64,000 bases of DNA from Sandaracinus sp. GTDB lineage: Bacteria; Myxococcota_A; Polyangia; Polyangiales; Houyiibacteriaceae. A program made the position numbers and the translations under genes. The notes beneath the pieces were generated by a model. The model worked only from the letters and a program-made list of their open reading frames with translations, was not told the DNA's origin and made no database searches. The stretch lies in NCBI GenBank assembly GCA_002699025.1, contig PABA01000089.1:47508-111507 (forward strand). The letters run 5' to 3'. Below, one piece after another: positions 45,130-63,917 of this stretch; the first letter of the stretch is position 1, and every line of letters starts with the position of its first letter.

Positions 45130-45160
45130 TTACATGTCTCAGTACTAAGAGCGCTTGCGC
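45130..45160 (+). promoter_or_regulatory. Guide-matched target site (PAM plus protospacer-like sequence) at a likely promoter
   Basis: TTA (45130-45132) is followed by CATGTCTCAGTACT (45133-45146), identical to the first 14 nt of the pseudo-spacer at 45294. Over the first 28 positions 24 match, with mismatches at 15, 18, 24 and 25. Just upstream is an AT-rich CACAATATCAAC, unusual in this GC-rich DNA and usable as a -10 region, so Cascade bound here would block initiation. TTN is the PAM reported for type I-G systems. Confidence 0.75.
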
Positions 45161-45257
45161 CTCTTCTGGAGGGAGGCTACTCTCTGCTCGAGCGGCGACG
45201 GGGCTCGAAACGAAGCGCTCGGTGGGCCCGGGTAGTCCAAGTAGCGCCCCATTCGTC
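45133..45257 (+). ncRNA. Putative creT-like toxin RNA gene (unproven)
   Basis: This is the DNA between the target site and the pseudo-repeat. It contains a four-codon mini-ORF, ATG TCT CAG TAC TAA (45134-45148), overlapping the target, and a strong GGAGGGAGG (45168-45176) with no ATG close behind. One frame stays open from here through the pseudo-repeat and ends in the codons ATG TCT CAG TAC TGA within the pseudo-spacer. The position between target promoter and guide is that of creT in CreTA modules. Nothing in the sequence proves toxicity, so it could equally be a long 5' leader. Confidence 0.35.
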
Positions 45258-45330
45258 GTTCTCCGCCGGCCTCCCGGCCGGCCCCGTTGAAGCCATGTCT
45301 CAGTACTGAGTGCGCTCACGCGCACACAGA
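45258..45330 (+). ncRNA. creA/creR-like guide RNA: degenerate CRISPR repeat plus pseudo-spacer
   Basis: The 36-nt pseudo-repeat (45258-45293) keeps the last 12 bases of the array repeat exactly (CCCCGTTGAAGC), including the 8-nt crRNA 5' handle. It forms a hairpin CCGGCC-TCCC-GGCCGG in place of CCGTCGTC-TCCA-GACGACGG. The pseudo-spacer starts at 45294 (CATGTCTCAGTACTGAG) and matches the upstream target. No second full repeat follows, but CCGGCCGGGAGGC at 45335-45347 is the exact complement of 45269-45281. A weak CCCC-GGGG-TTT hairpin at 45361-45376 could end the RNA. A guide processed by the Cas6 part of Csb2 and loaded in Cascade is inferred. Confidence 0.75.
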
Positions 45331-45453
45331 CTAACCGGCCGGGAGGCGCGAGCACGAATGCCCCAAATCGGGGTTTCGGCACCACGCGGGTGTCAGTACC
45401 GTCGGCGACCCTGCGTCTCGTGGGTGTGACGGCGCAGCGCGACAGGGGTCGGG

Positions 45454-47793
45454 GTGAGTAGCTACGCAGAGTTCTTCGAGCGCGCGACGGGGTTCGCGCC
45501 CTTCCCATTCCAGGAGCGGCTCGGGGAGCGCTCGGGGCTGCCTCCCCGGCTCGAGGCGCCCACGGGCAGCGGCAAGACCGCGGCGATCGTCCTGGCCTGG
45601 CTCTGGCAGCGGCGCTTCGCGGGCCCAGAGCTCCAGGCCCGGACGCCGCGGAGGCTGGTCTACGCGCTCCCCATGCGCGTGCTCGTCGACCAGGTCGCCG
45701 ACGAGGTCCGCAGCTGGCTCTCGAAGCTCGACCTCGCGGAGGACGTGGGCGTGCACGTGCTTCGCGGCGGGCACGTCGACGAGAGCTGGGAGGCGGCACC
45801 CGAGCGCGACGCGGTCCTGGTCGGCACGCAGGACCAGCTCCTCTCCCGCGCCCTGAACCGCGGCTTCGCGATGAGCCGCTTTCGGTGGCCGATGCACTTC
45901 GCGCTCCTCCACAACGACGCCTGGTGGGTCCTCGACGAGGTCCAGCTCATGGGCGCGGGGCTCCGTACGGCGGCGCAGCTCGAGGGCTTCCGCCGGCGCT
46001 GGAGCGCCTACGGCCCGGTCGGCACCACCTTCATGAGCGCCACCCTCCGGCCCGAGTGGCTCGCCACCCCGGACCACCCGGCTCCCGAGGACGCGGTCGC
46101 CCTCGACACCGCCGACTGGGAGAAGCCCGCGCTGAAGCGCCGTACCGAGGCCTCGAAGCCGCTCGCGCGCTGCCCGCTCGAGTCCCCGAAGGAGAAGGCC
46201 CTCGCCGAGTGGATCGCCGAGCAGCACCGCCCCGGTACCCTGACCCTGGTCGTCGTCAACCGAGTGAAGCGCTGCCAGGCACTCGCCAAGGCGCTCCGGA
46301 AGGCCTCGAAGGCCGACGTGCAGGTCCTCCACTCCCGCTTCCGGCCCGCCGAACGCCGGATCGTCGAGGGCCTCCTCAAAGCGCCCACCGAAAGCGAAGG
46401 GCGCATCGTCGTCGCGACGCAGACTGTGGAAGCGGGCGTGGATCTCTCGGCCACGACGCTCATCACCGACCTCGCCCCCTGGCCCTCGCTCGTGCAGCGC
46501 TTCGGCCGCTGCAACCGCCGCGGCGAGGTCGACGACGCGAAGGTGTTCTGGCTCGACCTCGACACCACGAAGAAGAACGCCTCCGCGCCCTACACCCCGG
46601 AGGAGCTCGACGCCGCACGCGCGCACCTCGAGGGCCTCGCCGACGCGCGCATCGCGGGCCTCCCGAAGGTGGAGACCGAGTGGCCCTCCACGGACCTCCC
46701 GCGCGCGAGCGACCTGCTCGATCTCTTCGACACGGACCCGGACCTCGACGGCAACTTCGTCGACGTCTCGCGCTGGATCCGCGGCAGCGGGTCGACGGAC
46801 GCCAGCGTCTACTGGCGTACGCTCCCGAAGGCCGGCCCTGGCGCCGACGAGCCAGCGCCTCGCCCCGAGGAGCTCTGCCCGGTCGCCGTCCCCGCGCTCG
46901 CCGGCTTCGTCAAGAACCACCGAGGCTCGGTCTGGCAGTGGGACCCCCTCGAGGGCAGGTGGGCGCGCGCCCACATCGACCCCGGCGGACCGGCTCCGGG
47001 CTTCGTCACCGCCGGCAAGCGCTACCTCGTCGACGCGGCCGCCGGCGGCTACGACCCGGAGCTCGGCTGGGAAGAGAAAGCCAAGCCCACCCCGCCCGTC
47101 GAGGTCCCCACCGCGCCCCCAGAGCAGGCCTTCGAGGACGATCGGCGCTCCGAGCTGGCGGGCTACGTCCGCCTCAACGTCCACCTCCAGGACGCCCACG
47201 AGGCCGCCCGCGCACTCGTCGAAGCGCTCGATCTGCTGGACGCCGAGCGCGCCGAGCAGGTCGCCCGCGCCGCTGGCTGGCACGACCTCGGAAAGGCGCA
47301 CCCGGTCTTTCAGCTCGCTGCGGGAGGCCCAGGGCGACCCAACGCGCTCCTCGCCAAGGCCGTGAGCTTCCGCCGCTACGAGCGCCGCGGCTTCCGCCAC
47401 GAGCTGGTGAGCGCCCTGGCCGCCGTGGCCTCGGGTGAGAGCGACCTGGTGGCCTACCTCGCCGCCACCCACCACGGGAAGGTTCGCCTCGGCCTGCGAC
47501 CGCTCCAGTGGGCCGACGGCGGCGAGAGCGAGGAGCTCCGCGGCGTGTGCGCGGACGACGCGCTGCCGCCCGTCGAGACCCCGACCGGCTCCTCGAAGGC
47601 GCTCGAGGCCATGCCGCTCGACCTCGCCCAGCTCGGCCGCGGCCCCAGCGGCCCCAGCTGGTCCGAGCGCGCGCTCCGCCTCCTCGACGCGCTCGGCCCC
47701 TTCCGCCTCGCCTACCTCGAGACGCTCGTCCGCGTCGCCGACTGGCGGGCCAGCGCCGACCCCTCCGAGCTGCAGGAGCCGACCGATGCCTGA
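45454..47793 (+). CDS. cas3: Cas3 helicase-nuclease, type I-G, with C-terminal HD domain
   Basis: The protein has 779 residues and a GTG start preceded by AGGGGTCGGG. The SF2 helicase comes first: Walker A APTGSGKTAA near residue 36-45, motif II DEVQ near 161, motif III FMSATL, and VVATQTVEAGVDLS with QRFGRCNRRGE for motifs V and VI. The HD nuclease lies at the C-terminus (GWHDLGKAH near 609 and THHGK further on). This helicase-then-HD order is the reverse of classical Cas3 and is characteristic of type I-G. The enzyme unwinds and degrades DNA after Cascade recognition. It is the first gene of the operon, and the csx17 start overlaps its last 8 bases. Confidence 0.95.
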   Translation: MSSYAEFFERATGFAPFPFQERLGERSGLPPRLEAPTGSGKTAAIVLAWLWQRRFAGPELQARTPRRLVYALPMRVLVDQVADEVRSWLSKLDLAEDVGVHVLRGGHVDESWEAAPERDAVLVGTQDQLLSRALNRGFAMSRFRWPMHFALLHNDAWWVLDEVQLMGAGLRTAAQLEGFRRRWSAYGPVGTTFMSATLRPEWLATPDHPAPEDAVALDTADWEKPALKRRTEASKPLARCPLESPKEKALAEWIAEQHRPGTLTLVVVNRVKRCQALAKALRKASKADVQVLHSRFRPAERRIVEGLLKAPTESEGRIVVATQTVEAGVDLSATTLITDLAPWPSLVQRFGRCNRRGEVDDAKVFWLDLDTTKKNASAPYTPEELDAARAHLEGLADARIAGLPKVETEWPSTDLPRASDLLDLFDTDPDLDGNFVDVSRWIRGSGSTDASVYWRTLPKAGPGADEPAPRPEELCPVAVPALAGFVKNHRGSVWQWDPLEGRWARAHIDPGGPAPGFVTAGKRYLVDAAAGGYDPELGWEEKAKPTPPVEVPTAPPEQAFEDDRRSELAGYVRLNVHLQDAHEAARALVEALDLLDAERAEQVARAAGWHDLGKAHPVFQLAAGGPGRPNALLAKAVSFRRYERRGFRHELVSALAAVASGESDLVAYLAATHHGKVRLGLRPLQWADGGESEELRGVCADDALPPVETPTGSSKALEAMPLDLAQLGRGPSGPSWSERALRLLDALGPFRLAYLETLVRVADWRASADPSELQEPTDA

Positions 47794-49960
47794 GCTACGC
47801 CTGGAAGGCCTCGCCGAGCCCGTGCTCGCCAACTACCTCGCGGCCCTCGGCGTCTTCCGCGCGCTCGCCGAGCAGGCCGACCCCGAGGCCACGCTCCGCT
47901 TCGAGAGCACGGGCGTGCCCATCCTCGAGACGCGCCTCGAGCCCGACGCCTGGGTGCGCTGGGTGCTCGACGAGTGGCAGCCGAGCCCCATCGCCTCGCC
48001 CTGGAACAGCGGCGCCGGCTTCTACGGCTCGAGCAAGTCGGTGAAGTGCACCGACGGCGCGAAGCGAAACGGCGCGGAGCTGGTCGCCGCCACCACCGAC
48101 GCGCGCCTCGCGACCTACCGGAACGTGCTCGCCTGGTGCGGCGCCTTCCTCGGCGCCACCGGCTACCCGGACGCGATGGAGAAGGACGCCTTCCTCGCGC
48201 AGCTCCGCAATGAGGCTCCGGAAGCGCTCCTCCCGTGGATCGACGCCATCGGCGTCGTCGAGGACCGCGACGGCCGCCGCGAGGCCCGCTTCCTGGCCCT
48301 CCTCGGCTCGGGCGGCAACGACGGCCGCCTCGATCTCGGCAACAACTACATGATCCACCTCTGCCGCCTGCTCGACCTGGAAGGCGGCCTCATCGACCGA
48401 CCGAAGAAGCCCGCCGCCTGGTCCGAGGGGCTGCTCCGCGCGTTCCTCGGCGAGCGCGCGGTGGGCCTGCTGAACGACTCCGCCGGCCAGTTCGCGCCCT
48501 CCGGTCGCGCCGCCCCCAACTCGGACTCGGGGAGCAACTCCTACGAGGGCAAGAAGCAGCTCAACCCCTGGCTCTTCCTCTGGGCCGTCGAGGGCTCGCT
48601 CCTCTTCCGCGGCGCCACGACCCGTCGCCTCGGCTCCCACGGCCGCGCCAAGGCGGCCTTCCCCTTCCACGCGGACCGCATCGAGGCGGGCTTCGGCTCC
48701 GCCAGCCACGAGAAGGGCAAGGACGAGCTCTGGCTGCCCTTGTGGAACCGGCCGACCTCGGCGCCGGAGGTGGAGCGCCTCTTCGGCGAGGCCCGCGCGC
48801 AGGTCGGGCGCCGCCGAGCGCGCAACGGGCTCGACTACGCCCGCGCCGTGACCGGCCTCGGCGCCGTCCGGGGCCTGAGCGGCTTCCACCGCTTCGCCAT
48901 CCTGGAGCGCGCCGGCCAGTCCAACATCGCCATCCACTCGGGCGTCTACTACGCGCAGTCGTCGCGTGTCGTCGACCGGCTGCGCGAGCTCGACCCCTAC
49001 ATCCTCCGCTACCAATCGCTCGCCGGCGGTGACCACGCCCCCGCCCGTTTCCGCAGCGCGCTCCGGCGCTTCGAGGACGCGACCCTCGAGCTCGCGAGGC
49101 GACCGGCGCCGGCCCGCGTCACCGCCCTGCTCGCCGCGCTCGGGCGCATGCGCCGCGAAGAAGCCGCCGGCCTGCCAGACGACAGCCGGCTGCCCCGCTT
49201 CACCCTCCGGAGCGCCGAGTGGCTCGATGGCGCCGAACAGAGCGCCGAGCTGCGCATCGCCACCGCCCTCGCCGCGCTCGACGATGGCGGCCCGTTCGTG
49301 CGCACGCGCGCCTACCTCTGGCCGAGCTCCGATCACGCCATCGAAGGCGCGCCCCGCTCGAACCTGGCGCAGCTCGCGACCGCGCTGCTCCGCCGGCGGC
49401 TCCTCGACCATCGTGACCCCGCCCCCCGAGACCGCGGTCCCCGGGAGCTCTGCAGGCCGGCCGGGGGCGAATCCGCCGTCCGGGCGAGCGACGTCGTGCT
49501 CTGGCAGGAGGGCCGCGTCGACGAGGCGCTCTGCCTCGACCTCTTCTGGTGCTTCGCGGAGCTCCCGGCCTCCGCGCTCCACGGCTGGCTTCGCCGCCAG
49601 CCCGTCGAACGCGCCCTCCCGCCGACGCTCTCGCGCGGCTGGATGCTGCTCCGCCTCGCCGTCGAGGGCGCGCTCCCCGACGTCCATCGGGCGCCCGTCC
49701 GTCCGCCCCGGGGCCTCCTCGAGGCGTGGTCGGCCCGCAACACGCGCCGCGCCGTCGAGCGCGCCACCCACGTGCTCCGCGCCGCCGGCCGCCCCCCGAC
49801 TGCGCGCGGCCTCGACCGGGTGCTCGAGCGCGCGCCCACGCCCCGCGTCCTCGCCTCGCTCGCCCTCCCGCTCCCCGTGCCCCTTCTGGCCGCCATGGCC
49901 GACCTCATCCTCGCCCGCCCCGCGCGTGACGAACCGACTCCCAAGGAGATGACCCCGTGA
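47786..49960 (+). CDS. csx17: Csx17 (Cas8u2), large subunit of type I-G Cascade
   Basis: The protein has 724 residues. The ATG at 47786 lies inside the end of cas3. It starts MPELRLEGLAEPVLANYLAA, the usual Csx17 opening in which the LxG-LxxYLAALG pattern is conserved. Other typical segments are SPWNSGAGFYG, LDLGNNYMIHLC, PNSDSGSNSYEGKKQLNPW and SYEG-like turns. LSGFHRFAILERAGQSN follows further on. The subunit replaces Cas8 as the PAM-sensing large subunit of the I-G surveillance complex. No nuclease motif is evident. The stop overlaps the csb1 start as GTGA. Confidence 0.93.
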   Translation: MPELRLEGLAEPVLANYLAALGVFRALAEQADPEATLRFESTGVPILETRLEPDAWVRWVLDEWQPSPIASPWNSGAGFYGSSKSVKCTDGAKRNGAELVAATTDARLATYRNVLAWCGAFLGATGYPDAMEKDAFLAQLRNEAPEALLPWIDAIGVVEDRDGRREARFLALLGSGGNDGRLDLGNNYMIHLCRLLDLEGGLIDRPKKPAAWSEGLLRAFLGERAVGLLNDSAGQFAPSGRAAPNSDSGSNSYEGKKQLNPWLFLWAVEGSLLFRGATTRRLGSHGRAKAAFPFHADRIEAGFGSASHEKGKDELWLPLWNRPTSAPEVERLFGEARAQVGRRRARNGLDYARAVTGLGAVRGLSGFHRFAILERAGQSNIAIHSGVYYAQSSRVVDRLRELDPYILRYQSLAGGDHAPARFRSALRRFEDATLELARRPAPARVTALLAALGRMRREEAAGLPDDSRLPRFTLRSAEWLDGAEQSAELRIATALAALDDGGPFVRTRAYLWPSSDHAIEGAPRSNLAQLATALLRRRLLDHRDPAPRDRGPRELCRPAGGESAVRASDVVLWQEGRVDEALCLDLFWCFAELPASALHGWLRRQPVERALPPTLSRGWMLLRLAVEGALPDVHRAPVRPPRGLLEAWSARNTRRAVERATHVLRAAGRPPTARGLDRVLERAPTPRVLASLALPLPVPLLAAMADLILARPARDEPTPKEMTP

Positions 49961-50940
49961 CCGATCCGCTCGCCCTCGCCGACCAGCTCCTCGGCGGCTC
50001 CACCGCCCGGCTCCTCTACGAGACCGACCTCCGCGTCCTCACCGGCAGCCGCTTCCAGCCCACCGGCTTCCCCGATCTCGGCGCGGCCCTCTACCCCGAC
50101 CCGCACACCGGCGAAGACCGCCTGCTCGTCGAGTCCGCCCAGTCCATGGCGAACCGGCTCGAGAAGGTCTGCTGGGACGACGTCGAGGACGACCTGGTCG
50201 CCCCGCTTCGCGGCCTGCCTTACGTGCGCGTGAAGGGCGATGTCTCGAGCGCCTCCGTCCTCGAGGCGCATCGGCTGAACTCGCCGTACGTGCTCGCAGA
50301 CGAGGACTTCAAGGCGGCGTTCGAGGACGCAGCTGAACTCACTAGCGGCCAGGTCGATCGCCCCACCTACGCCCGGGCGCTCCTCCACTACGACCCCAAC
50401 TCGCTCGTCCACGGCTCCTTCATGTCGATGGTGAAGAAGGGCACGGCCCGCCTCGAGCGCATGCTCAGCGCCTTCATCGAGGCCGAGGGCGTGCAGATCG
50501 CAGCCAGCGGCGGGGTGAAGTTCGACCGCAACGACGTCTCCGGCAAGGACGCCGGTGGCTCCGCAGAGGGCTTCGGCAACGTGCCCTTCCACCGGAGCGA
50601 GTACGTCGCGCGGCGGATCTTCGCGGCCTTCAGCGTCGACCTGGCCGGGCTCCGGGGCCTTCGTCTCCCGGCCTGCGGCGCGCAGGTCGTGCTCCTCCTC
50701 GCGCTCTACAAGATCGCCCGCTTCCTGGACGCGCCGCAGCGGCTCCGCACCGCCTGCGACCTCGAACGCGACGCCGAGGCGACGCCGAAGGTGCGCCCGG
50801 AGAGCTTCGAGCTGCCGAGCGTCGAGGCGCTCCAGGAGGCGTTGCCGAAGGCCATCGCGAAGTGCGCCGCGGAGGGCTGCTTCGCCGACCCGGCCGTGAC
50901 CGAGGTGACCTACACCGCGAAGAAGAAGTCGAAGAAGTAG
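49957..50940 (+). CDS. csb1: Csb1 (Cas7), type I-G Cascade backbone
   Basis: The protein has 327 residues and a GTG start in a GTGA overlap with csx17. It has the Csb1/GSU0053 pattern: an RVLTGSRFQPTGFPDLGAAL opening, LLVESAQSMANRLE, SPYVL, then DPNSLVHGSFMS and RLERMLSAFIEAEGV. A lysine-rich end follows (YTAKKKSKK). Several copies should coat the crRNA spacer and pair it with target DNA. Cas7 subunits flip every sixth base of the guide, which matters for the mismatch pattern of the creA-like guide upstream. The csb2 ATG follows after 6 bases. Confidence 0.94.
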   Translation: MTDPLALADQLLGGSTARLLYETDLRVLTGSRFQPTGFPDLGAALYPDPHTGEDRLLVESAQSMANRLEKVCWDDVEDDLVAPLRGLPYVRVKGDVSSASVLEAHRLNSPYVLADEDFKAAFEDAAELTSGQVDRPTYARALLHYDPNSLVHGSFMSMVKKGTARLERMLSAFIEAEGVQIAASGGVKFDRNDVSGKDAGGSAEGFGNVPFHRSEYVARRIFAAFSVDLAGLRGLRLPACGAQVVLLLALYKIARFLDAPQRLRTACDLERDAEATPKVRPESFELPSVEALQEALPKAIAKCAAEGCFADPAVTEVTYTAKKKSKK

Positions 50941-50946
50941 GCCGCC

Positions 50947-52347
50947 ATGCCGGTCGCCCTCCATCTCCGCTTCCCCGCCGGCCGCTACCACGCGACCGGC
51001 TGGGGTCACCACGTCAATGAGGCCGCGCTCGACTGGCCGCCGGCGCCCTTCCGCCTGCTCCGCGCCCTTTACGCGCAGGCCTTCCGTCTCCCCGAGCGCC
51101 CGGAGCGCGAGCGGCTCGCGAGCCTCTTCGGCAAGCTCGCGCGGCCGCCCGCCTACCGCCTGCCCGACTACACCGAGGGACACACGCGCCACTACGTTCC
51201 GACCCAGACGATCCCGATCGAGAAGGGGCGCGTGCAGGTGCTCGACGCCTTCGCTGCGGTCCGCCCCACCGACACGCTCGTCGCCCAGTGGGACGCGAAG
51301 CTCTCGCCAGAGGAGGAGGCGCTCCTCGGCGCGCTCGCCGGCTCGCTGACCTACCTCGGCCGCGCCGAGTCCTGGTGCGAGGCGGTCCTCGGGGAGCCCG
51401 TCGAGGGCGCCGTCGGCCCGGGGGAGGGAGAAGGCGAGCCCGTGTCCCTCCTCGCCCTCTCCCGTGACTGCGACGACGTGCTCGCCAGCCTGGACACGCG
51501 GACCGACCTGCTCCGGAAGAAGAAGGCCGCGACTCCGCCCGGAACCACCTGGGTGCGCTACTTCGTGAAGCCGGCGGCCCGCCCCGTGCGCGCCCCTCGA
51601 CACGCGCGGGAGCGCCCCACGGCGGCGCTCTTCCAGCTCGACGCCGGCGCCCGGCCGCGCATCCTCGACGCCGTCGAGATCGGCCATCGCTTCCGGCGCG
51701 CGCTCCTCTCGAAGCGCGGCGACGGCCCCGCCCCCGTGCTCTCCGGCAAGCAGGGACGAGAGGCCCGGGAGAGCGGCCATCGCCACGCGCATTACCTGCC
51801 CTTCGACCTCGAGGGAGACGGGCGCATCACGCACCTGCTGCTCTGGGCCGAGGAGGGCTTCGACGCGCCGGCGCTCGAGGCCATGAGCGCGCTCCGACGC
51901 GTCTGGCGGGCACGCGACCGGGAAGACGCCCTCCAGGTGAAGCTGCTCGATGTCGGTCCGCTCGAGGAGCTCGACGCGCTGCCCCTCCTCTCGGCGCGGG
52001 GAGCCCGCCGCTGGCGAAGCCACACCCCCTTCCTCCTGATGCGGCACCCGAAGCGGCGCGGGGGGCAGCTCCGCGACGGCCCCGAGGACCAGCTCCGCCG
52101 CGAGCTCGCCCACCGCGGGCTCCCCGAGGCCACACGCATCGAGCGCCTCGACGCCCCCGTCCTCCGGGGCCCCCGCGTGCGCTGGCTCGAGTACCGCCGC
52201 TGGCGCGGCCGCCACAGCCCCGCCGTGCCCAGCCCCTACGGCTTCCGCATCGAGCTCGGCGAGCCCATCCGCGGCCCCCTGAGCCTCGGCTTCGGCGCCC
52301 ACTTCGGCCTCGGCCTCTTCGTGCCGGACGAAGGCGAGGAGCCGTGA
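50947..52347 (+). CDS. csb2: Csb2, Cas5-Cas6 fusion of type I-G
   Basis: The protein has 466 residues. The N-terminal half is Cas5-like (LHLRFPAGRYHATGWGHHVN, WPPAPFRLLRALYA). The C-terminal half is a RAMP of Cas6 type (SGHRHAHYLPFDLEGDGRI with a candidate catalytic His, and a final glycine-rich loop LGFGAHFGLGLF). The protein should cut the repeat at the base of its hairpin and hold the 8-nt 5' handle GUUGAAGC. No separate cas6 is present, in keeping with this fusion. Its substrate in this locus must include both repeat variants of the array and, if the guide is real, the GC-rich creA hairpin. The stop overlaps the cas4-cas1 start as GTGA. Confidence 0.93.
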   Translation: MPVALHLRFPAGRYHATGWGHHVNEAALDWPPAPFRLLRALYAQAFRLPERPERERLASLFGKLARPPAYRLPDYTEGHTRHYVPTQTIPIEKGRVQVLDAFAAVRPTDTLVAQWDAKLSPEEEALLGALAGSLTYLGRAESWCEAVLGEPVEGAVGPGEGEGEPVSLLALSRDCDDVLASLDTRTDLLRKKKAATPPGTTWVRYFVKPAARPVRAPRHARERPTAALFQLDAGARPRILDAVEIGHRFRRALLSKRGDGPAPVLSGKQGREARESGHRHAHYLPFDLEGDGRITHLLLWAEEGFDAPALEAMSALRRVWRARDREDALQVKLLDVGPLEELDALPLLSARGARRWRSHTPFLLMRHPKRRGGQLRDGPEDQLRRELAHRGLPEATRIERLDAPVLRGPRVRWLEYRRWRGRHSPAVPSPYGFRIELGEPIRGPLSLGFGAHFGLGLFVPDEGEEP

Positions 52348-54086
52348 CCGACCCCGCCGAGAAGGGCGAGACAACCGCTGCCCGCTCCGCCGCCCCGCGG
52401 GCCAAGCACCTGAAGGGGAAGCTCCCGCTCGTCGGCGCGCCGCCGGAGCTGGTGCCGGCGCGCATGGTCAACGAGGTGCTCTATTGCGAGCGGCTCGCGT
52501 ACCTCGAGTGGGCGCAGAAGGAGTTCGCCGACAACTTCTACACCGTGGAGGGACGCGCGGTGACGCACCGCCGCGTCGACCAGGGCGGCAAGCCACCCGA
52601 GGCGCCGTCGGCGGAGGCTCCCTGGGAGGCGCGCTCGGTCTGGCTCTCGTCGCAGGAGCTCGGGCTCACGGCGAAGGTCGACCTCGTCGAGGCGGACGGC
52701 GGGAAGGTGGCGCCCGTCGAGTACAAGCGCGGCAAGAAGCCGGACCTGGAGGAGGGCGCCTGGCTGCCCGAGCGGGCCCAGCTATGCGCGCAGGTGCTGC
52801 TCCTTCGTGCGCACGGGTACGAGTGCGAGGAGGCCTGGATCTGGTTCGCCGGGAGCCGGGCCAAGGTCGCCATCGCCATCGACGACGCGCTGGTGCAGAC
52901 GACACGCGAGGCCATCGCGCGCGTGCGCCGGGTGGTCGCCGAGGCTCGGCTGCCGGACCCGCTCGTCGACAGCCCGAAGTGCCGGGGCTGCTCGCTGGCC
53001 TCCCTTTGCCTGCCGGACGAGGTCCACGCCCTCCGGGAGAGGGTCACCCGGCGCCTGCGTCGCCTCCACCCCTCGCGCGACGACCGCGCGCCGCTCTACG
53101 TCGCCGAGAACGGCGCCAAGGTCGGCGTCCGCAAGCAGCGCCTCGTCGTCAAGAGCCGCGACGGCTCGAAGGCCGAGGTGCGCATCCCGAACACTACGCA
53201 CGTCTGCCTCTTCGGCAACGTGCAGGTCTCCACGCAGGCCATGCGCGCCCTGCTCTCGCGCGGCATCCCCATCGCGTTCTTCACCAGCGGCGGCTGGTAC
53301 TCGGGCCGGACCCTCCCACACGACTCCAAGAACGTGGAGCTCCGCGTAGCGCAGTACCGGGCCACCGGCGACGAGGCGTGGCGTCTGCGGCTCGCCCGCC
53401 AGCTCGTCCGCGACAAGATCCTCAACGCGCGCACGCTCCTCCGCCGCAACCACGCGAGCCCCTCCGAGGAGGCGCTCTTCGAGCTGAAGCAGCTCGCGCG
53501 AAAGGCCGCCGAGGCGCCCTCGCGGCGCGCGCTCCTCGGCATCGAAGGCACAGCCGCGCGCCGCTACTTCGCGGAGCTGACGGGCATGCTCAAGGGCGCG
53601 CCCGAGGTGCTCGCCACCTTCGACTTCAACGGCCGGAACCGGCGCCCGCCGAAGGACCCCATCAACGCGCTGCTCGGCTTCGCCTACGCGCTCCTCACCA
53701 AGGACTGGGCGCTGACCTGCCAGCTCGTCGGCCTCGACCCGCTGCTCGGCTTCTTCCACGAGCCACGCTTCGGCCGGCCCGCGCTCGCGCTCGACCTGAT
53801 GGAGCCGTTCCGCCCGCTGATCGCCGACAGCGCCGTCATCGGCGCCATCAACAACGGCGAGGTCGGTGCGCGGGACTTCCTCCTCTCGACGGTCGGCTGC
53901 AGCCTGACGGCTCGCGGGCGCCGGAAGCTCATCGGCGCCTACGAGCGGCGCATGAGCCAAACCATCACGCACCCCACCTTCGGCTACCGCATCAGCTACC
54001 GCCGCATCCTCGAGGTCCAGGCCCGCCTGCTCGGGCGGCACCTCCTCGGGGAGCTCGACGAGTACCCCAGCTTCCGCACACGATGA
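52344..54086 (+). CDS. cas4-cas1: Cas4-Cas1 fusion, adaptation integrase and PAM-trimming nuclease
   Basis: The protein has 580 residues with a GTG start. The N-terminal Cas4 (about 1-230) has the first cluster cysteine at C48 in EVLYCERLAYLEW, the nuclease core VDLVEADG and PVEYKRGKK, and three further cysteines in CRGCSLASLC near 213-222. Cas1 (about 240-580) has the metal-binding Glu in GIEGTAARRYF near 400, His in GFFHEPRFG near 471 and Asp in LALDLMEPFRP near 483. The fusion is typical of type I-G and selects spacers with the correct PAM while integrating them at the leader end. The next gene, cas2, overlaps as ATGA. Confidence 0.96.
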   Translation: MTDPAEKGETTAARSAAPRAKHLKGKLPLVGAPPELVPARMVNEVLYCERLAYLEWAQKEFADNFYTVEGRAVTHRRVDQGGKPPEAPSAEAPWEARSVWLSSQELGLTAKVDLVEADGGKVAPVEYKRGKKPDLEEGAWLPERAQLCAQVLLLRAHGYECEEAWIWFAGSRAKVAIAIDDALVQTTREAIARVRRVVAEARLPDPLVDSPKCRGCSLASLCLPDEVHALRERVTRRLRRLHPSRDDRAPLYVAENGAKVGVRKQRLVVKSRDGSKAEVRIPNTTHVCLFGNVQVSTQAMRALLSRGIPIAFFTSGGWYSGRTLPHDSKNVELRVAQYRATGDEAWRLRLARQLVRDKILNARTLLRRNHASPSEEALFELKQLARKAAEAPSRRALLGIEGTAARRYFAELTGMLKGAPEVLATFDFNGRNRRPPKDPINALLGFAYALLTKDWALTCQLVGLDPLLGFFHEPRFGRPALALDLMEPFRPLIADSAVIGAINNGEVGARDFLLSTVGCSLTARGRRKLIGAYERRMSQTITHPTFGYRISYRRILEVQARLLGRHLLGELDEYPSFRTR

Positions 54087-54376
54087 GCCGTCACGCCTAC
54101 CTCGTCAGCTACGACATCGCCGACGACCGCCGGCGGACGCACATCCACGAGCTGTGCCGAGGCTACGGCGAGCGGCTCCAGTACAGCGTCTTCCGCTGCG
54201 ACATGAGCCGTACCGAGCGAGTCGAGCTCGAGAGCGCGCTCTCGGAGGCGATCCACCACGAGGAGGACCAGATCCTCGTGATCGATCTCGGGCCTGTGGA
54301 GGGCCGCGCCCAGTGGTGCGTCCGTGCCATGGGCAAGCCCTACACGCCCCCTGACGGTGGGCCGGTCATCTTGTGA
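54083..54376 (+). CDS. cas2: Cas2, adaptation complex dimer subunit
   Basis: The protein has 97 residues, the usual length. It starts MSRHAYLVSYDIADDRRRTH with the conserved SYDI aspartate at the end of the first ferredoxin strand. YSVFRCDMSRTERVELESAL and QILVIDLGPVEGR follow. It bridges two Cas4-Cas1 dimers. It is the last gene of the operon and ends 195 bases before the first repeat. Confidence 0.96.
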   Translation: MSRHAYLVSYDIADDRRRTHIHELCRGYGERLQYSVFRCDMSRTERVELESALSEAIHHEEDQILVIDLGPVEGRAQWCVRAMGKPYTPPDGGPVIL

Positions 54377-54571: not shown

Positions 54572-57500
54572 CTCTCCGTCGTCTCCAGACGACGGCCCCG
54601 TTGAAGCTAGAAGACAGATATAGAGTGATAGATGATCTGGGAAATTACTCTCCGTCGTCTCCAGACGACGGCCCCGTTGAAGCGCGGAGGAGGTCTCGCG
54701 CCCGCACCTCGATGCGGTCGAACTCCTCTCCGTCGTCTCCAGACGACGGCCCCGTTGAAGCGATGTTGTCTACCGTCCCTGGGTGCTTCCAAACAAGCCC
54801 TCTCCGTCGTCTCCAGACGACGGCCCCGTTGAAGCTTATCCCGAGACGGGCGGGTGGGATCTCGTTCTTGTGCTCTCCGTCGTCTCCAGACGACGGCCCC
54901 GTTGAAGCGCAGCGCGGCCATCACCGCCGCGAGCTACAACGCCTATGCGCTCTCCGTCGTCTCCAGACGACGGCCCCGTTGAAGCGGCGAGGACATGCCG
55001 CCCTTCCGCAAGCTGGAGGTGGTGGACTCTCCGTCGTCTCCAGACGACGGCCCCGTTGAAGCCGCAGTGCGCGCATGTCGCTGCGGTCGGTAGCCCCGAG
55101 GCTCTCCGTCGTCTCCAGACGACGGCCCCGTTGAAGCCGATGCTGTCGGGCGCGCCCGTGACGAACCTCCACCCGCCCTCTCCGTCGTCTCCAGACGACG
55201 GCCCCGTTGAAGCGCGCGCCGTGTCGTGGTGCCGCTGGCGCCGAGTGTCGCGGCTCTCCGTCGTCTCCAGACGACGGCCCCGTTGAAGCACCTCGCGGCG
55301 GAGCTCCACGACCTGGGCCTCGATGGCCTCTCCGTCGTCTCCAGACGACGGCCCCGTTGAAGCGTGATGTAGGCTCGGCCGACGCTCCGCCAGAGCCCGT
55401 GCTCTCTCCGTCGTCTCCAGACGACGGCCCCGTTGAAGCGTGGACAGCGAGACGGCGACTCGTAAGGGCAGCTACCAGCCTCTCCGTCGTCTCCAGACGA
55501 CGGCCCCGTTGAAGCGACGAGCTCGCGGACCGCACGACTCGATCGGCCTGGCTGCTCTCCGTCGTCTCCAGACGACGGCCCCGTTGAAGCAGAGAACGAC
55601 GCTCCAGAGCGCGCGCCATCGAGCATCACCGCTCTCCGTCGTCTCCAGACGACGGCCCCGTTGAAGCGATCACGTCAACCTGGGCAGTCGACGGGGCGGC
55701 CGGTCTCTCCGTCGTCTCCAGACGACGGCCCCGTTGAAGCACGACACGACCTTAGGCGTTGAAACACGGTCAACTGTTCTCTCCGTCGTCTCCAGACGAC
55801 GGCCCCGTTGAAGCAACGCCTTTCTCCATTGGAAGATGCCGACTCAGAAGGTCTCTCCGTCGTCTCCAGACGACGGCCCCGTTGAAGCTTGAGGTAGAGC
55901 GGGTGGCTCGGCGCTCCACCCTTCGTGATCTCTCCGTCGTCTCCAGACGACGGCCCCGTTGAAGCGTGCAGCCCGGAGCACGTGTCCAGCCAGTGCCCCG
56001 CTCTCCGTCGTCTCCAGACGACGGCCCCGTTGAAGCGACCTCTCGGCGCCTTCGTCGATTCGAACAACGCGAACTCTCCGTCGTCTCCAGACGACGGCCC
56101 CGTTGAAGCCTGTCTGGATGCTCTTCTGCGGAACCCACTCATACTCCTCTCCGTCGTCTCCAGACGACGGCCCCGTTGAAGCCCCACGAGCACCACCCCC
56201 TCGCGAGCGCGCGTGAGCGCCGTGCTCTCCGTCGTCTCCAGACGACGGCCCCGTTGAAGCGCCGTGACCCACTCACCGGCCAGCGCGGTCGTCAGCCGGC
56301 CCTCTCCGTCGTCTCCAGACGACGGCCCCGTTGAAGCTCCAGCGTCTCGTCGTTGCGGCAGATGAGCTTCAGCCCTCTCCGTCGTCTCCAGACGACGGCC
56401 CCGTTGAAGCGGGAGAGCGAGCGCCGACTCCCACTCGTCGAGCAGGTCCTCTCCGTCGTCTCCAGACGACGGCCCCGTTGAAGCCACCCGCCGCCGTCGC
56501 ACTGCCCGGTGGCCCGCTGGTAGGCTCTCCGTCGTCTCCAGACGACGGCCCCGTTGAAGCTTCGAAGAGCTCGCGAAGGCGGACGAGGATGCGTTCATCG
56601 GCACTCTCCGTCGTCTCCAGACGACGGCCCCGTTGAAGCCAAGTCACCCTTGTACTTACCACTCCTACCATATACCTCTCCGTCGTCTCCAGACGACGGC
56701 CCCGTTGAAGCCGCTTGTATCACATTGTCGTGGAAATGCCGGATGGGCGCTCTCCGTCGTCTCCAGACGACGGCCCCGTTGAAGCCGGCAATGACTCTCG
56801 CCGTCACGAAATGCTCGGCTAGTCTCTCCGTCGTCTCCAGACGACGGCCCCGTTGAAGCTCGACCAGTCAGGCCAAGCGCGAGCGGGTCAACTGGCTGCT
56901 GCTCTCCGTCGTCTCCAGACGACGGCCCCGTTGAAGCAGGCGGCCCGTTCCCTTCGGGGGCTTGGTACCTCCGCTCTCCGTCGTCTCCAGACGACGGCCC
57001 CGTTGAAGCGAGTGCGAGTGCCCGCCCGAGTGGGAGCTCGAGGACGGGTCTCTCCGTCGTCTCCAGACGACGGCCCCGTTGAAGCATGCCGAGGTCGCGG
57101 AGCACGAGCGAGGTCCCCTGCGCGACTCTCCGTCGTCTCCAGACGACGGCCCCGTTGAAGCCTGCAGCTCGACGTTCCCGCCGCGTGCACGGTGTCGCTC
57201 TCTCCGTCGTCTCCAGACGACGGCCCCGTTGAAGCGTCATCGGCCCGGACTTCGACGTCGCCCGCGACGCCCTCCTCTCCGTCGTCTCCAGACGACGGCC
57301 CCGTTGAAGCGTCATGTACTTGACGAGCTCCGCCTCCACGCCCTTGCCTCTCCGTCGTCTCCAGACGACGGCCCCGTTGAAGCATCGGCGGTCCGGCCGG
57401 CGTCTGGGAACTCTTCGTCGGGCTCTCCGTCGTCTCCAGACGACGGCCCCGTTGAAGCTCCAGCAAGGTCAAGAGTCGCGCCGGTCACGTCGCGGTTCTC

Positions 57501-60500
57501 ACCCTCTCCGTCGTCTCCAGACGACGGCCCCGTTGAAGCCGGCAGGAGCGCGAGGGCTGGCTCGAGGACGAGTTTCACGACTCTCCGTCGTCTCCAGACG
57601 ACGGCCCCGTTGAAGCCGCCACCACTGGCGATTGCGCTTTTGCGCTTCCACTCTTTCAGTCCTCTCCGTCGTCTCCAGACGACGGCCCCGTTGAAGCCAG
57701 CGTCGGAGGCGGAGATCCTCGGGTGGCGCACGGCGGACTCTCCGTCGTCTCCAGACGACGGCCCCGTTGAAGCCACGCCCTTGCGCACGGCCCTCACGTC
57801 CACGACCGGCTCTCCGTCGTCTCCAGACGACGGCCCCGTTGAAGCTGCCAGATCCGACCGCTGGAAGGGCCGCTCAGTGACCGCTTCTCTCCGTCGTCTC
57901 CAGACGACGGCCCCGTTGAAGCACCAGAGTCGGCGGGAACTGTGACCTCACCATCTGACCGGTCCTCTCCGTCGTCTCCAGACGACGGCCCCGTTGAAGC
58001 CTGACGCTATTCGGCCACCGTTTGGCCACCTGTCGTCTCTCCGTCGTCTCCAGACGACGGCCCCGTTGAAGCACCGTCCCGTGGATCTGGCCAAGCGCCC
58101 GCAGCTGCGCCTGGTGCTCTCCGTCGTCTCCAGACGACGGCCCCGTTGAAGCAACTGGCGGCCGTACCGAGGGTGCACGGTCCATGCGCCCTCTCCGTCG
58201 TCTCCAGACGACGGCCCCGTTGAAGCGACGTCCAGGCGCTCGACACCGAGCTCCGCGCCATCCTCCTCTCCGTCGTCTCCAGACGACGGCCCCGTTGAAG
58301 CGTCAAGCAGCTCGGCGCGCACGTCGTGAGCGAGCAGCGCGCTCTCCGTCGTCTCCAGACGACGGCCCCGTTGAAGCTTGCGGCCGGCGCTGCCGCTCCG
58401 GATCTTCTCCACCTGGCCTCTCCGTCGTCTCCAGACGACGGCCCCGTTGAAGCGCCGGAGTGAGCTGGCCGACGGTACGGAGCGAGTGCCTCTCCGTCGT
58501 CTCCAGACGACGGCCCCGTTGAAGCGTGGAGCGTCGAGAAGGCCGCAGATTCATCCCGGCCAAGCCTCTCCGTCGTCTCCAGACGACGGCCCCGTTGAAG
58601 CCGGGCGCACGTCGCGGAGACGGCCTCGAAGCGTGCCTGGCACTCTCCGTCGTCTCCAGACGACGGCCCCGTTGAAGCTAGGCGTAGCGGCCGCGCACGG
58701 GCTGCACCACCGCGTCGTCGCTCTCCGTCGTCTCCAGACGACGGCCCCGTTGAAGCGCCTTCTCGATCGACACCACCGAGGCCTCGACCAGGAGGTTCTC
58801 TCCGTCGTCTCCAGACGACGGCCCCGTTGAAGCCTCGACGAGGTGGCGGCGTTCCCGCACGGCTCGCACGACGACTCTCCGTCGTCTCCAGACGACGGCC
58901 CCGTTGAAGCCTCCGCCGCACGCCCAACGACATCGAGCTCGAGCTCCCCGACTCTCCGTCGTCTCCAGACGACGGCCCCGTTGAAGCCGCGAGAGCGGGG
59001 GGGTTCGCGGGAAGCCCATGGTCAGGCGCTCTCTCCGTCGTCTCCAGACGACGGCCCCGTTGAAGCTCCGGCATCGTCCGCGTGACGACCGCGACCTCCT
59101 GACCTCTCCGTCGTCTCCAGACGACGGCCCCGTTGAAGCAGCGCACCGCCGCCGCGCTGGAAATGCCGGTTACGATCTCTCTCCGTCGTCTCCAGACGAC
59201 GGCCCCGTTGAAGCGGTCCTTGGCCTTCACCCGCAAGGTACGGCGCCTATCGGCTCTCCGTCGTCTCCAGACGACGGCCCCGTTGAAGCATGACCGAGCG
59301 CTTCGCGGGGCGCGAGTTCGGGCCCGACGACTCTCCGTCGTCTCCAGACGACGGCCCCGTTGAAGCGTGATCAACAGGACCAGCGACGCGAACATCACCC
59401 TCGAGCTCTCCGTCGTCTCCAGACGACGGCCCCGTTGAAGCATCTCCCCGTACCCCTTGACCCCGAGGCTTCGGGCGTGCGCGCTCTCCGTCGTCTCCAG
59501 ACGACGGCCCCGTTGAAGCTGCCACTCGTCGGAACGGCAGGCGTCCGCCCACCACCCGACCTCTCCGTCGTCTCCAGACGACGGCCCCGTTGAAGCCCGA
59601 GGAGGATCTTCGCGAGCTCGGCCACCGAGCCGGCCATCCTCTCCGTCGTCTCCAGACGACGGCCCCGTTGAAGCCATCGGACCGCCGCCGCGGTGAAGGC
59701 CGGGTTGTCCTGGCTGCTCTCCGTCGTCTCCAGACGACGGCCCCGTTGAAGCTCAACGAGCGGTGGCTGGCTCATCAGCGACCGGGAACCTCTCCGTCGT
59801 CTCCAGACGACGGCCCCGTTGAAGCCCCCGGTCGTAGACCCCCTGGCCTCGCGGCGGACGACTCTCCGTCGTCTCCAGACGACGGCCCCGTTGAAGCGGT
59901 CCTACTCCGCCGCCAGTCAGACCGCGGACATTGACTCTCCGTCGTCTCCAGACGACGGCCCCGTTAAAGCCAGTCGATCAGCACGAGATCGCCGTCCGCG
60001 CCCCGCCCGGCCTCTCCGTCGTCTCCAGACGACGGCCCCGTTGAAGCCTGTTCCTGCCACCACTGGTAGGTGTCCGGATCCCACACCTCTCCGTCGTCTC
60101 CAGACGACGGCCCCGTTGAAGCATGGTGCCCGTGACGCGGTCGAGAGAGCGGCAGTGGATCCTCTCTCTCCGTCGTCTCCAGACGACGGCCCCGTTGAAG
60201 CCTCATCATGTCGCACGCGCTGCTGACCCCGCGGCTCGGCGCTCTCCGTCGTCTCCAGACGACGGCCCCGTTGAAGCATCCGGATGACCAACGCCGTGCT
60301 CGGCGTGTTGGAGCGCCTCTCCGTCGTCTCCAGACGACGGCCCCGTTGAAGCGTGAGGATGGCCGCGCGCTTCTCGAGCGGACGCATCGGCTCCTCTCCG
60401 TCGTCTCCAGACGACGGCCCCGTTGAAGCGAGCTCGGCGCCTTCCTCGACGGCCTCCTCGAGGAGCCCCCTCTCCGTCGTCTCCAGACGACGGCCCCGTT

Positions 60501-63500
60501 GAAGCGCGACCGACGCCGTCACCGAGGCAGAGGTCACCTACCTGACTCTCCGTCGTCTCCAGACGACGGCCCCGTTGAAGCGATCCTGGTACGGCCGCGA
60601 GATGAGTCGCAAGCTCGGAGCTCTCCGTCGTCTCCAGACGACGGCCCCGTTGAAGCGTTCGCAGACGCTCGGCGGCGTCCTCGGTGAGCTTGGCCACTCT
60701 CCGTCGTCTCCAGACGACGGCCCCGTTGAAGCTGCAAGAAAATAGACCAGCTACACGACGCAGACTGGACTCTCTCCGTCGTCTCCAGACGACGGCCCCG
60801 TTGAAGCCTCTGCGTGTCGCGGAGCGCGTCGAGCACGCGCTGGAGCCTCTCCGTCGTCTCCAGACGACGGCCCCGTTGAAGCTACAGGGATGTCATAGTC
60901 AGAATTCATGGGCCCCACGACTCTCCGTCGTCTCCAGACGACGGCCCCGTTGAAGCGAGCTTACCGGCGGCGAACGTGGCGTGCTTGGGCCCGTGGACTC
61001 TCCGTCGTCTCCAGACGACGGCCCCGTTGAAGCAAGAAGGACCCCGAGCGCGCGGCGAACATCAGGCTGGTCTCTCCGTCGTCTCCAGACGACGGCCCCG
61101 TTGAAGCCCCTCGAGCTCCGGGCGGCCGCACCGGCCCAGCGCCGACTCTCCGTCGTCTCCAGACGACGGCCCCGTTGAAGCGTTTCGTCTGCCCGGCTTC
61201 CAGTTCCCTCCTCAGCCCAGCTCTCCGTCGTCTCCAGACGACGGCCCCGTTGAAGCACAGGCCTCGGCGGCCGTGCTCCCATGATGCCGCGGCATCTCTC
61301 CGTCGTCTCCAGACGACGGCCCCGTTGAAGCCGTGAGTACGACGGCACCACCGGCGTGGGTAGCTCGGCTCTCCGTCGTCTCCAGACGACGGCCCCGTTG
61401 AAGCAGGCTCTTCGGGTCCACGTACTCGTCAGGGGCGACTCTCCGTCGTCTCCAGACGACGGCCCCGTTGAAACGCGTCGGAGTAGTAGAGCTCGAGGGC
61501 GAGGTCCTCGGCCTCTCTCCGTCGTCTCCAGACGACGGCCCCGTTGAAGCCTCATGCGAAGAGCCTCGCGAGGCAGCCGAGGGGGCGGGCGGCTCTCCGT
61601 CGTCTCCAGACGACGGCCCCGTTGAAGCACGACGTGCGTCAGCGGGAGGCCCTCGCGGAGCTCGACTCTCTCCGTCGTCTCCAGACGACGGCCCCGTTGA
61701 AGCCAGGTGCCGCGGCAGCGGGCCCCGGGGCGGCCCCAGGCCTCTCCGTCGTCTCCAGACGACGGCCCCGTTGAGGCGCTGAACGCCTCTCCGTCGTCTC
61801 CAGACGACGGCCCCGTTGAAGCCCTATCAGTCGGCGCGACTCGCCGCCTGTATTGCATCTCTCCGTCGTCTCCAGACGACGGCCCCGTTGAAGCCTGCGG
61901 TGGCAGTGGGCCCCGGTCCCGAAGGGGGTGCGCCCTCTCCGTCGTCTCCAGACGACGGCCCCGTTGAAGCTCCCTCCGCGTCGCGGTGCTGTAGCTGGTA
62001 GCTAACTCTCCGTCGTCTCCAGACGACGGCCCCGTTGAAGCCGTCTCCCCGGCGCCCACACACTTGATAGCCTGTCGCTCTCCGTCGTCTCCAGACGACG
62101 GCCCCGTTGAAGCTTCTATGAGGTCAAGGCGACCGCTCCGTGTTCTGACGTTCTCTCCGTCGTCTCCAGACGACGGCCCCGTTGAAGCCGCGCACGTGTG
62201 CGCACGCCTAGGACGGCGACCAAATGGCCGCTCTCCGTCGTCTCCAGACGACGGCCCCGTTGAAGCGGAGTGGCTCCCTACAGGGAGATTCGTCTGGTAA
62301 AGGCCCTCTCCGTCGTCTCCAGACGACGGCCCCGTTGAAGCGACGCGGTCGTCCGCGATCTGGACGAAGCAGGTTTCCGTGTGCTCTCCGTCGTCTCCAG
62401 ACGACGGCCCCGTTGAAGCGAGCGCTGGTCCGCTGGGCGCGGTCGCGAGGCTACAGCGGGCCCGCTCTCCGTCGTCTCCAGACGACGGCCCCGTTGAAGC
62501 GGGCGAGCGATTCGTGACCCTCACGGTGCCGCACTCGGGCGCTCTCCGTCGTCTCCAGACGACGGCCCCGTTGAAGCGACGGGATGGCGCTCGAGCTGGT
62601 CCGCTGGCACGGCTCCCGCTCTCCGTCGTCTCCAGACGACGGCCCCGTTGAAGCCCTGGTCCGCGGCGTACTCGGGCGCCGCTCCACGATCCAGGCTCTC
62701 CGTCGTCTCCTGACGGCGGCACCGTTGAAGCGCGCAGTTCGAGGGCGCGCGGGGCCTTGGCGCCCTCTCCGTCGTCTCCTGACGGCGGCACCGTTGAAGC
62801 CCTAGGTATGCGCGCAATCGCGCACCGTGTCAGTGTGCGCTCCTCTCCGTCGTCTCCTGACGGCGGCACCGTTGAAGCGCGTGGACCCGGCCTGGTACGG
62901 CGGCGACGACGCGGTGGTGCTCTCCGTCGTCTCCTGACGGCGGCACCGTTGAAGCGAGCGGAGGTGGTCGAGGGGCGCCGTCAGCAAGGGCAGCTCTCCG
63001 TCGTCTCCTGACGGCGGCACCGTTGAAGCCACTTCACCTGGTCTGGGAGAACGACGTTACTCATTGCGGCTCTCCGTCGTCTCCTGACGGCGGCACCGTT
63101 GAAGCCGTCTACAGGCTAGCCCGGCGCCGCTCCCTAGTAGCCTCTCCGTCGTCTCCTGACGGCGGCACCGTTGAAGCGAGAGAAGGAACAGGTGCTCGTG
63201 GCCCCGCCCCGGGCGGTCTCTCCGTCGTCTCCTGACGGCGGCACCGTTGAAGCACGATCCGGACCTTCGCGTAGGCGTCGGCGACGTTGCTCTCCGTCGT
63301 CTCCTGACGGCGGCACCGTTGAAGCTGAACCTCTTCCTCGGCCTCATCGGCCTCCCCGAGCTCTCCGTCGTCTCCTGACGGCGGCACCGTTGAAGCTGCG
63401 TCGCGTAGATCGTCTCGGCGCCCATGCGACCGGCGACTCTCCGTCGTCTCCTGACGGCGGCACCGTTGAAGCGCGCAGTGTGACACGGTCCGCGTCTTCT

Positions 63501-63917
63501 GGCCCCCTCCCTCTCCGTCGTCTCCTGACGGCGGCACCGTTGAAGCGAGTGTTGCTCTCACTCGGGGCGGCCCGGGTATGTGTGCTCTCCGTCGTCTCCT
63601 GACGGCGGCACCGTTGAAGCACATCACGATTGGAGGGTTCCACTTTTGGTAAGCCACTCTCCGTCGTCTCCTGACGGCGGCACCGTTGAAGCGGCGACGA
63701 CGCGCCCCGCATCCGCCTGAAGCCGACCCTCTCCGTCGTCTCCTGACGGCGGCACCGTTGAAGCGCCAGGCCGTCGAGGCGGATCAGCAGGTCGAGGGCG
63801 CGCGCTCTCCGTCGTCTCCTGACGGCGGCACCGTTGAAGCAACTCGTAGCTGCCCGCCGTGAGGCGTCGCAGATCTGCCGCCTCTCCGTCGTCTCCTGAC
63901 GGGTAACCGTTCAGCCC
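54572..63917 (+). CRISPR. Type I-G CRISPR array, about 125 repeats in two sequence forms
   Basis: 36-bp repeats begin CTCTCCGTCGTC. In form A they continue TCCAGACGACGG and end CCCCGTTGAAGC. I count 108 form A repeats (54572 to 62654), then 17 form B repeats (62696 on). Form B differs at positions 16, 21 and 26. The hairpin CCGTCGTC/GACGACGG is 8 bp. Spacers are mostly 35-42 bp. Single variants end GTTAAAGC (59935), GTTGAAAC (61439) and GTTGAGGC (61742). The spacer after the last of these is only 9 bp. The final repeat at 63882 is degenerate after position 20, marking the distal end. ORFs across the array are artefacts of the repeats. Counts were made by eye and may be off by one. Confidence 0.99.
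62696..63917 (+). repeat. Leader-distal block of form B repeats
   Basis: Seventeen repeats read CTCTCCGTCGTC, then TCCTGACGGCGG, then CACCGTTGAAGC. The hairpin is kept through a G-T wobble. All three changes appear together from the first repeat of the block, with no intermediate form in the preceding 108 repeats. Confidence 0.95.

Follow-up and report, generated by a model that had tools for sequence, protein, structure and literature searches.

A solitary repeat upstream of cas3 as a candidate CreR-type guide gene in type I-G CRISPR-Cas loci

Why should a single degenerate CRISPR repeat stand upstream of cas3, apart from the array whose repeat it resembles, and could it serve as a guide gene directed at its own locus? 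In the present study, this question was addressed at a type I-G locus of Sandaracinus sp. (the window locus, called W where loci are compared). The window is the whole stretch of 64,000 nucleotides of contig PABA01000089.1 that was analysed. A complete type I-G operon, identified by NCBIfam matches, occupies part of its + strand and is followed by a long CRISPR array:

45454..47793, + strand: cas3g, the first gene of the operon (TIGR02621)
47786..49960, + strand: cas8g/csx17 (TIGR04113; start codon picked by eye)
49957..50940, + strand: cas7g/csb1 (TIGR02570)
50947..52347, + strand: csb2, a Cas5-Cas6 fusion and the predicted processing enzyme (TIGR02165)
52344..54086, + strand: cas4g-cas1g fusion (NF049935)
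54080..54376, + strand: cas2 (TIGR01573)
54572..63840, + strand: CRISPR array on the strand of the cas genes, with the repeat CTCTCCGTCGTCTCCAGACGACGGCCCCGTTGAAGC (from the sequence)

Type I-G has been described as the least well understood of the type I subtypes (PMC9638904). In the same report, the crRNA carries an 8-nt handle, Csb2 cuts 4 nt 3' of the repeat stem, the PAM is TTN, and each sixth base of the guide is flipped out and unpaired. CreR is reported as a crRNA-like RNA that is encoded by a mini-CRISPR separate from the array, is partly complementary to the cas promoter and represses cas (PMC13131331, PMC12948488, PMC12737573), and this cas autorepression has been described for types I-B, I-E and V-A (PMC13131331). 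One report places CreR in 'Type I and Type V-A' and calls it 'widely distributed in Type I', in statements that leave I-G unnamed (PMC12737573). Among the literature matches listed, which were mostly open papers with the primary CreR paper outside them, no CreR-like guide in type I-G was found.

One solitary repeat, GTTCTCCGCCGGCCTCCCGGCCGGCCCCGTTGAAGC, here called psiR1, lies between the upstream gene and cas3. It belongs with the following features:

45130..45132, + strand: TTA, the PAM of the target (from the sequence; TTN is the published I-G PAM, PMC9638904)
45133..45149, + strand: target, a 17-nt match to the guide (from comparison with the guide)
45155..45183, + strand: possible promoter TTGCGC-N17-TACTCT just 3' of the target (weak, inferred from a hexamer scan)
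45258..45293, + strand: psiR1, a degenerate repeat with an intact handle (from sequence and fold; at 45269-45293 Rfam CRISPR-DR16 matches below threshold, with E 0.18)
45286..45293, + strand: 8-nt handle GTTGAAGC, with the predicted Csb2 cut between 45285 and 45286 (geometry as reported in PMC9638904)
45294..45334, + strand: psiS, the guide, whose first 17 nt pair with the target (from comparison with the target)

A preliminary description of this DNA had recognised the solitary repeat at 45258-45293, and the repeat proved to be real. Its tail was said to keep the last 12 bases of the array repeat; the shared tail was confirmed, and its extent is 14 bases, not 12. Thus psiR1 and the array repeat have 14/14 terminal bases (GGCCCCGTTGAAGC) in common, including 8/8 handle bases, and only 0.06 chance occurrences of this 14-mer at one mismatch or fewer are expected in the window. 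The stem has indeed been rebuilt, with the core CCGGCC/GGCCGG around a TCCC loop as had been described, or alternatively as GCCGGCC/GGCCGGC, and psiR1 folded alone reaches -16.0 kcal/mol. The core stem preserves the spacing CCCC^GTTGAAGC, which is the Csb2 cleavage geometry reported for I-G, 4 nt 3' of the stem (PMC9638904). The predicted guide RNA starts with GUUGAAGC at 45286, with the handle followed by the guide from 45294. The end of psiR1 is 160 bp from cas3, and the distance to the first array repeat at 54572, given earlier as 9 kb, is 9.3 kb. Genome-wide, the 12-mer CCCCGTTGAAGC has 108 forward sites and 1 reverse site; among the matches listed, the sole site beyond the array and psiR1 is G000:C19:51245, which by eye has no repeat stem.

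The target, its TTA PAM and an inverted copy of the stem at 45335-45347 had been overlooked. The bases directly 3' of the handle, CATGTCTCAGTACTGAGTGCGCT, are found again at 45133 as CATGTCTCAGTACTAAGAGCGCT, compared with a mean of 0.00 matches in 100 shuffles. The target sits 161 bp upstream of the guide and the match begins precisely at guide position 1, with 14 contiguous matches from there and 24/28 over the first 28 positions; the mismatches fall at positions 15, 18, 24 and 25, and two of these four are flipped positions. In the 9.24-Mb assembly, rated 95.9% complete, PAM plus seed occurs at 1 site when up to one mismatch is allowed. For scoring, matches were counted over the 15 guide positions among 1-17 that are not multiples of six. 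Over the 1371 TTN sites of the window ahead of the array, the guide scores 14/15 once and 9 at the next best site. Of the window-locus array, 121 spacers reach at most 11/15 against the region upstream of cas3, compared with 14/15 for the solitary guide. We consider it probable, on this sequence evidence, that the unit is a CreR-type guide gene, whose RNA would lead the I-G Cascade to the TTA-flanked target upstream of cas3 and so repress its own cas operon.

Related loci were surveyed for comparable units. In total 118 loci were gathered: the window locus, 37 from its own phylum (Myxococcota) found by Cas3, which represent 37 of the 45 other genomes with a Cas3 match, and 80 found by a Cas7g alignment scan of contigs, which are the best 80 of at least 560 relatives. 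Cas7g relatives were found neither in viral contigs nor in the plasmids searched. Removal of 8 duplicates left 110 discovery loci carrying type I-G genes, the short ones cas3 alone. With arrays masked, sites within two mismatches of CCYCRTTGAAGC were examined for a TTN-flanked target within 600 bp, on both sides and both strands, with a score of at least 13; this cut-off was set after the first hits were seen and then fixed for the held-out sets. Such a target was present at 17 of 609 handle-like sites, compared with 2 of 5690 for 12 shuffled handles. One further locus, L124 (score 12), was retained by judgement, giving 18 discovery loci. A minus-strand pair in L033, also of score 12, was judged to be chance and dropped, and hits such as L145, L097 and one in L075, in which guide or target was array sequence, were removed by the masking.

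With rule and cut-off unchanged, held-out loci gave units in 4/31 and, in a second batch, 3/10, a rate which is no prevalence estimate because the genomes were drawn from groups having a unit. Duplicates had been removed from both batches (7 of 39 plus L200, leaving 31; 6 of 16, leaving 10). The shuffled handles gave 0/977 at a score of at least 13, and 2/768 and 0/209 at 12. Altogether the unit is present in 18/110 discovery and 7/41 held-out loci, that is 25 loci with differing guide sequences, and in 18/85 loci that have cas3 and at least 400 bp upstream of it. The carriers include what we take to be Gammaproteobacteria (L094, L105 and L114, the last from Thioalkalivibrio halophilus HL17), Planctomycetota (L106, L121, L126), Chloroflexota (L132), Bacillota (L124) and Myxococcota (L134). 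For the closest relative, G010, whose Cas3 is 62% identical, 955 bp upstream of cas3 could be inspected and contain no unit, so the distribution is patchy.

Other forms of the search were less selective. When the PAM and flip rules were left out, 33/609 real sites reached at least 14/17 compared with 147/4698 controls; the enrichment is modest and this search is too noisy to stand alone. A looser handle search near cas3 gave 16/2024 at 13 or more compared with 10/12058 controls and added one candidate, which was not counted. This candidate, L130 (Alicyclobacillus herbarius), is a possible unit with a seemingly lengthened handle (ATTGAAGGGAAGC) and a TTC-flanked target of score 13. Solitary handles at L039 (guide at -733 from cas3), L046 and L075 (guide at -457) had no convincing target within the search; L075 has another unit further upstream than its -457 handle.

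The pairing pattern across the 25 units is regular. At each of positions 1-5, 7-11 and 13-15, guide and target agree in 22-25 of the 25 units, at position 16 in 20/25 and at position 17 in 17/25. Agreement falls to chance level at position 6 (6/25), at position 12 (7/25) and beyond position 17 (3-11 of 25 at positions 18-36). The handle, the PAM and positions 1-17 except 6 and 12 were selection criteria of the search, and the counts at 6, 12 and beyond 17 are unbiased because these positions lay outside the selection. Dropping 6 and 12 from scoring gave 17/609 hits (controls 4/3128), compared with 8-9 (controls 0-4) for other pairs of positions six apart. The footprint is that expected of the I-G Cascade, in three blocks of five pairs in which positions 6 and 12 correspond to the flipped-out bases of the solved structure. 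Furthermore, the units of L105 and L219 could be aligned and their second repeats are nearly identical. At the paired positions 3, 8, 11 and 13 their guides carry different bases, and each difference is mirrored in the targets; positions 6, 12 and the marginal 17 have changed out of step. This change in step was seen in a single pair, and the regions around the two targets, which lie 365 and 481 bp upstream of their guides, failed to align. Together with the single PAM-flanked target and the recurrence of the unit, it supports the earlier suggestion of a self-directed guide resembling CreA or CreR, which would be produced by the Cas6 activity, here Csb2.

The position of the units also bears on what they might regulate. 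In all 18 discovery units the target is upstream of the guide, both sides having been searched. Seventeen units lie no more than 1.7 kb from cas3 on its 5' side; 9 of these share its orientation and 8 diverge from it. The unit of L138 lies between csb2 and cas4-1, as does its target, and may act on the adaptation genes instead of cas3. In the window and 8 other discovery loci the order is target, unit, cas3, with unit and cas3 on one strand; the guide is therefore probably cut out of the 5' leader of the same cas mRNA that it would repress. Four divergent loci (L109, L124, L132 and L159) have a target oriented like cas3, at a distance of 76 to about 300 bp from where the cas3 match begins; the target of L037 is oriented opposite to both guide and cas3. 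In L081, L106, L121 and L126, where the unit is divergent from cas3, the target follows the guide strand and points away from cas3; therefore, the repressed promoter could be that of the unit itself. L094 and L114 have the unit close to cas3 and a target-guide distance of 89 and 81 bp, hence the most likely start of the cas transcript is close to psiR1, with the guide inside the transcript.

The match at 45133-45149 may coincide with the cas promoter, and the promoter match in the window is weak. It reaches the 94th percentile of the locus, and such percentiles are only indicative because the comparison was with random locus positions, mostly coding; a stricter promoter scan of the window locus found no promoter. 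In 8 of 13 discovery loci with a guide-strand target (L075, L094, L106, L126, L134, L138, L142 and, weakly, the window locus), the best -35-like hexamer (TTGACA or a variant starting with TTG) begins 13-24 nt after the target start. The scan was scored with hexamer frequencies.

The proposed mechanism may be set out as follows. The unit would be transcribed, and Csb2 is predicted to cut at 45285/45286 and yield a guide RNA with the handle 45286-45293 and the guide from 45294. This RNA is predicted to bring the I-G Cascade to 45133-45149. There Cascade would bind and Cas3 would not cleave, because the pairing ends at about 17 nt, which corresponds to three Cas7 segments. Bound Cascade would block the promoter and likely reduce transcription into the cas operon. 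A guide borne in the leader would provide direct negative feedback, which abundant crRNAs or anti-CRISPR proteins would relieve.

The 3' side of the unit appears in two forms. In 18/25 units a second degenerate repeat follows at +38 to +44, with a hairpin of 7 bp or more; the corresponding count for random positions is 45/4556. These second repeats keep the hairpin and none of the 18 retains AAGC, the last four handle bases; psiR1 ends in AAGN in 25/25 units, psiR1 handles being a selection criterion. The window locus is outside these 18, with no self-folding second repeat, and has at +41 to +53 an inverted copy of the psiR1 stem, flanked by an outer stem:

45250..45256, + strand: 5' strand of the outer stem, CATTCGT, partner of 45354-45360 (predicted fold)
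45335..45347, + strand: anti-repeat in the place of the second repeat (its 13 nt, loop included, are the perfect reverse complement of psiR1 45269-45281)
45354..45360, + strand: 3' strand of the outer stem, ACGAATG, partner of 45250-45256 (predicted fold)

Bases complementary to psiR1 were also found downstream in L037 (14), L134 (10), L124 (8) and L081 (7), numbers equalled by 0-4 of 200 shuffles. L106, in which the hairpin is present, has 6 (P 0.045), and no significant psiR1 complement was found downstream in L109 and L033. In predicted ensembles of the window locus, L037, L081, L134 and L124, 14-18 pairs join psiR1 to the downstream element and at most 0.1 form inside either element. In the other 17 units folded, which together with these five cover the discovery loci and the first held-out batch, there are at most 0.3 cross pairs in 15 and about 2 in L109 and L176. 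The stretch of the window unit folds to -74.6 kcal/mol (z -3.8), with the outer stem and some folding of guide and handle; the guide is predicted to self-fold at 45310-45325, and part of the handle to pair with the seed.

From these folding models we infer that psiR1 and the anti-repeat could form a domain-swapped stem, whose base would look to Csb2 like the base of a normal repeat. Alternatively, their pairing may hinder Csb2, and at the window locus either this pairing or the folding of the guide could hinder Csb2 or Cascade. A fuller proposal, which we offer tentatively and with somewhat more doubt than confidence, is that type I-G carries its own CreR-like guides, which in the window locus, L037, L081, L134 and L124 would take a swapped-stem form with the second repeat turned into an anti-repeat. 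The duplex 45269-45281/45335-45347 would then present the Csb2 site and afterwards cap the 3' end of the guide, and the precursor in the window would be the 5' leader of the repressed cas mRNA. If true, the swapped stem is a new route to a crRNA-like guide from one stem.

Several known systems resemble the unit, and one of them suggests a different function. CreA of haloarchaeal type I-B is reported to pair at positions 1-5 and 7-11 next to a PAM, with 6 and 12 unpaired, and to have two degenerate repeats of which psiR1 is the more diverged; a comparable I-F unit has been described (PMC8501985, PMC9458426, PMC10097628). The present unit shares with CreA of CreTA (I-B, I-F) the psiR1-psiS-psiR2 layout and the PAM-flanked partial complementarity, and CreA and CreR guides are said to follow one grammar (PMC8501985, PMC10097628). 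The guide could thus be an antitoxin: the gene of a small toxin RNA (creT) would occupy the interval from the target promoter to psiR1 and be repressed by the guide, with the cell addicted to Cascade. The window would offer 74 nt from the weak -10 element to psiR1 and a single GTG-initiated frame of 22 codons, which opens at 45222 and stops within the handle, and a small RNA toxin is undetectable by inspection of spacing or frames. However, the unit adjoins cas3 in 17/18 discovery loci, no toxin gene was seen on inspection, and in L094 and L114, with target and guide only 89 and 81 bp apart, transcription would start at about psiR1, which leaves hardly any room for one. Since the targets adjoin cas3 and these two loci have so little toxin-gene room, the unit is closer to CreR than to CreA, and we regard the antitoxin as improbable.

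Two explanations that involve no working guide are less likely still. The 12-bp palindrome CTCAGTACTGAG occurs in two copies 161 bp apart upstream of cas3, the guide copy being perfect, and these might be ordinary repressor sites with a coincidental likeness to a repeat. Yet the match sets in precisely where the handle ends, a TTN PAM precedes the upstream copy, and the other 24 units have handle, PAM and the 6/12 gap pattern in common, even though by eye their guides differ from that of the window and from one another (L105 and L219 being alike); a pair of operators is thus very unlikely. We hold much the same doubt about a fossil, namely a decayed mini-array left by a rearrangement that is now neither made nor used. 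The psiR1 stem and 5' half have diverged, the second repeat of the window does not fold on itself and the nearest relative has no unit, as such decay would leave them, but handle and seed are intact, the target occurs once in the assembly, relatives have kept the paired positions, and the unusual pairing of psiR1 with the anti-repeat is common to five loci including the window.

For the favoured reading, a cas autoregulator of the CreR type, the likeness to CreR lies in a unit that derives from a repeat, stands apart from the array but close to the cas genes, and is partly complementary to a site upstream of cas3. Unlike CreR, the present unit belongs to a subtype, I-G, that uses Csb2 and lacks Cas5 at the 5' handle; pairing covers about 17 nt in three 5-nt blocks, the unit often apparently lies within the cas 5' leader, and the stem is swapped in the window and four other loci. 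The tracr-L of Cas9 is likewise a natural guide reported to repress a cas promoter (PMC8730458), but it belongs to a Cas9/tracrRNA system whose effector and RNA are unrelated to the I-G unit. The scaRNA of Francisella novicida also combines an ectopic degenerate repeat, short complementarity and repression (PMC9458426), whereas it is of type II and its target is a lipoprotein operon. If the favoured reading is true, RNA-guided cas autoregulation reaches type I-G, and the units reveal the way in which this subtype encodes it. The 25 guide/target pairs amount to a natural experiment in which evolution would have retained only the positions paired by the solved I-G Cascade. Furthermore, the 5+1 periodicity and the stop at about 17 nt open a 'bind but do not cut' rule to direct testing in I-G, and I-G cas expression is predicted to rise when anti-CRISPR proteins disable Cascade.

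Some additional features were observed in the flanks of the surveyed loci and in the array of the window. L105 and L106 have near the guide unit a gene resembling, by eye, a regulator of the WYL/HTH type, which may be a second layer of cas control. In the planctomycete loci L106, L121 and L126, the interval from target to cas3 contains an ORF of 171-192 aa that runs in the direction of cas3. In L142 a second, partial match to the C-terminus of cas3 (query residues 664-770) precedes the intact cas3 and lies about 1.6-2.0 kb upstream of the guide. In the window, GGCCCC of the array repeat is replaced by GGCACC ahead of GTTGAAGC in all 16 copies listed from 62718 to 63840, up to the window end. 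At 61764-61822 two repeat ends are 45 nt apart, the first with the one-base handle variant GGCCCCGTTGAGGC at 61764, a spacing that may be read as a shortened spacer or a deletion within the array.
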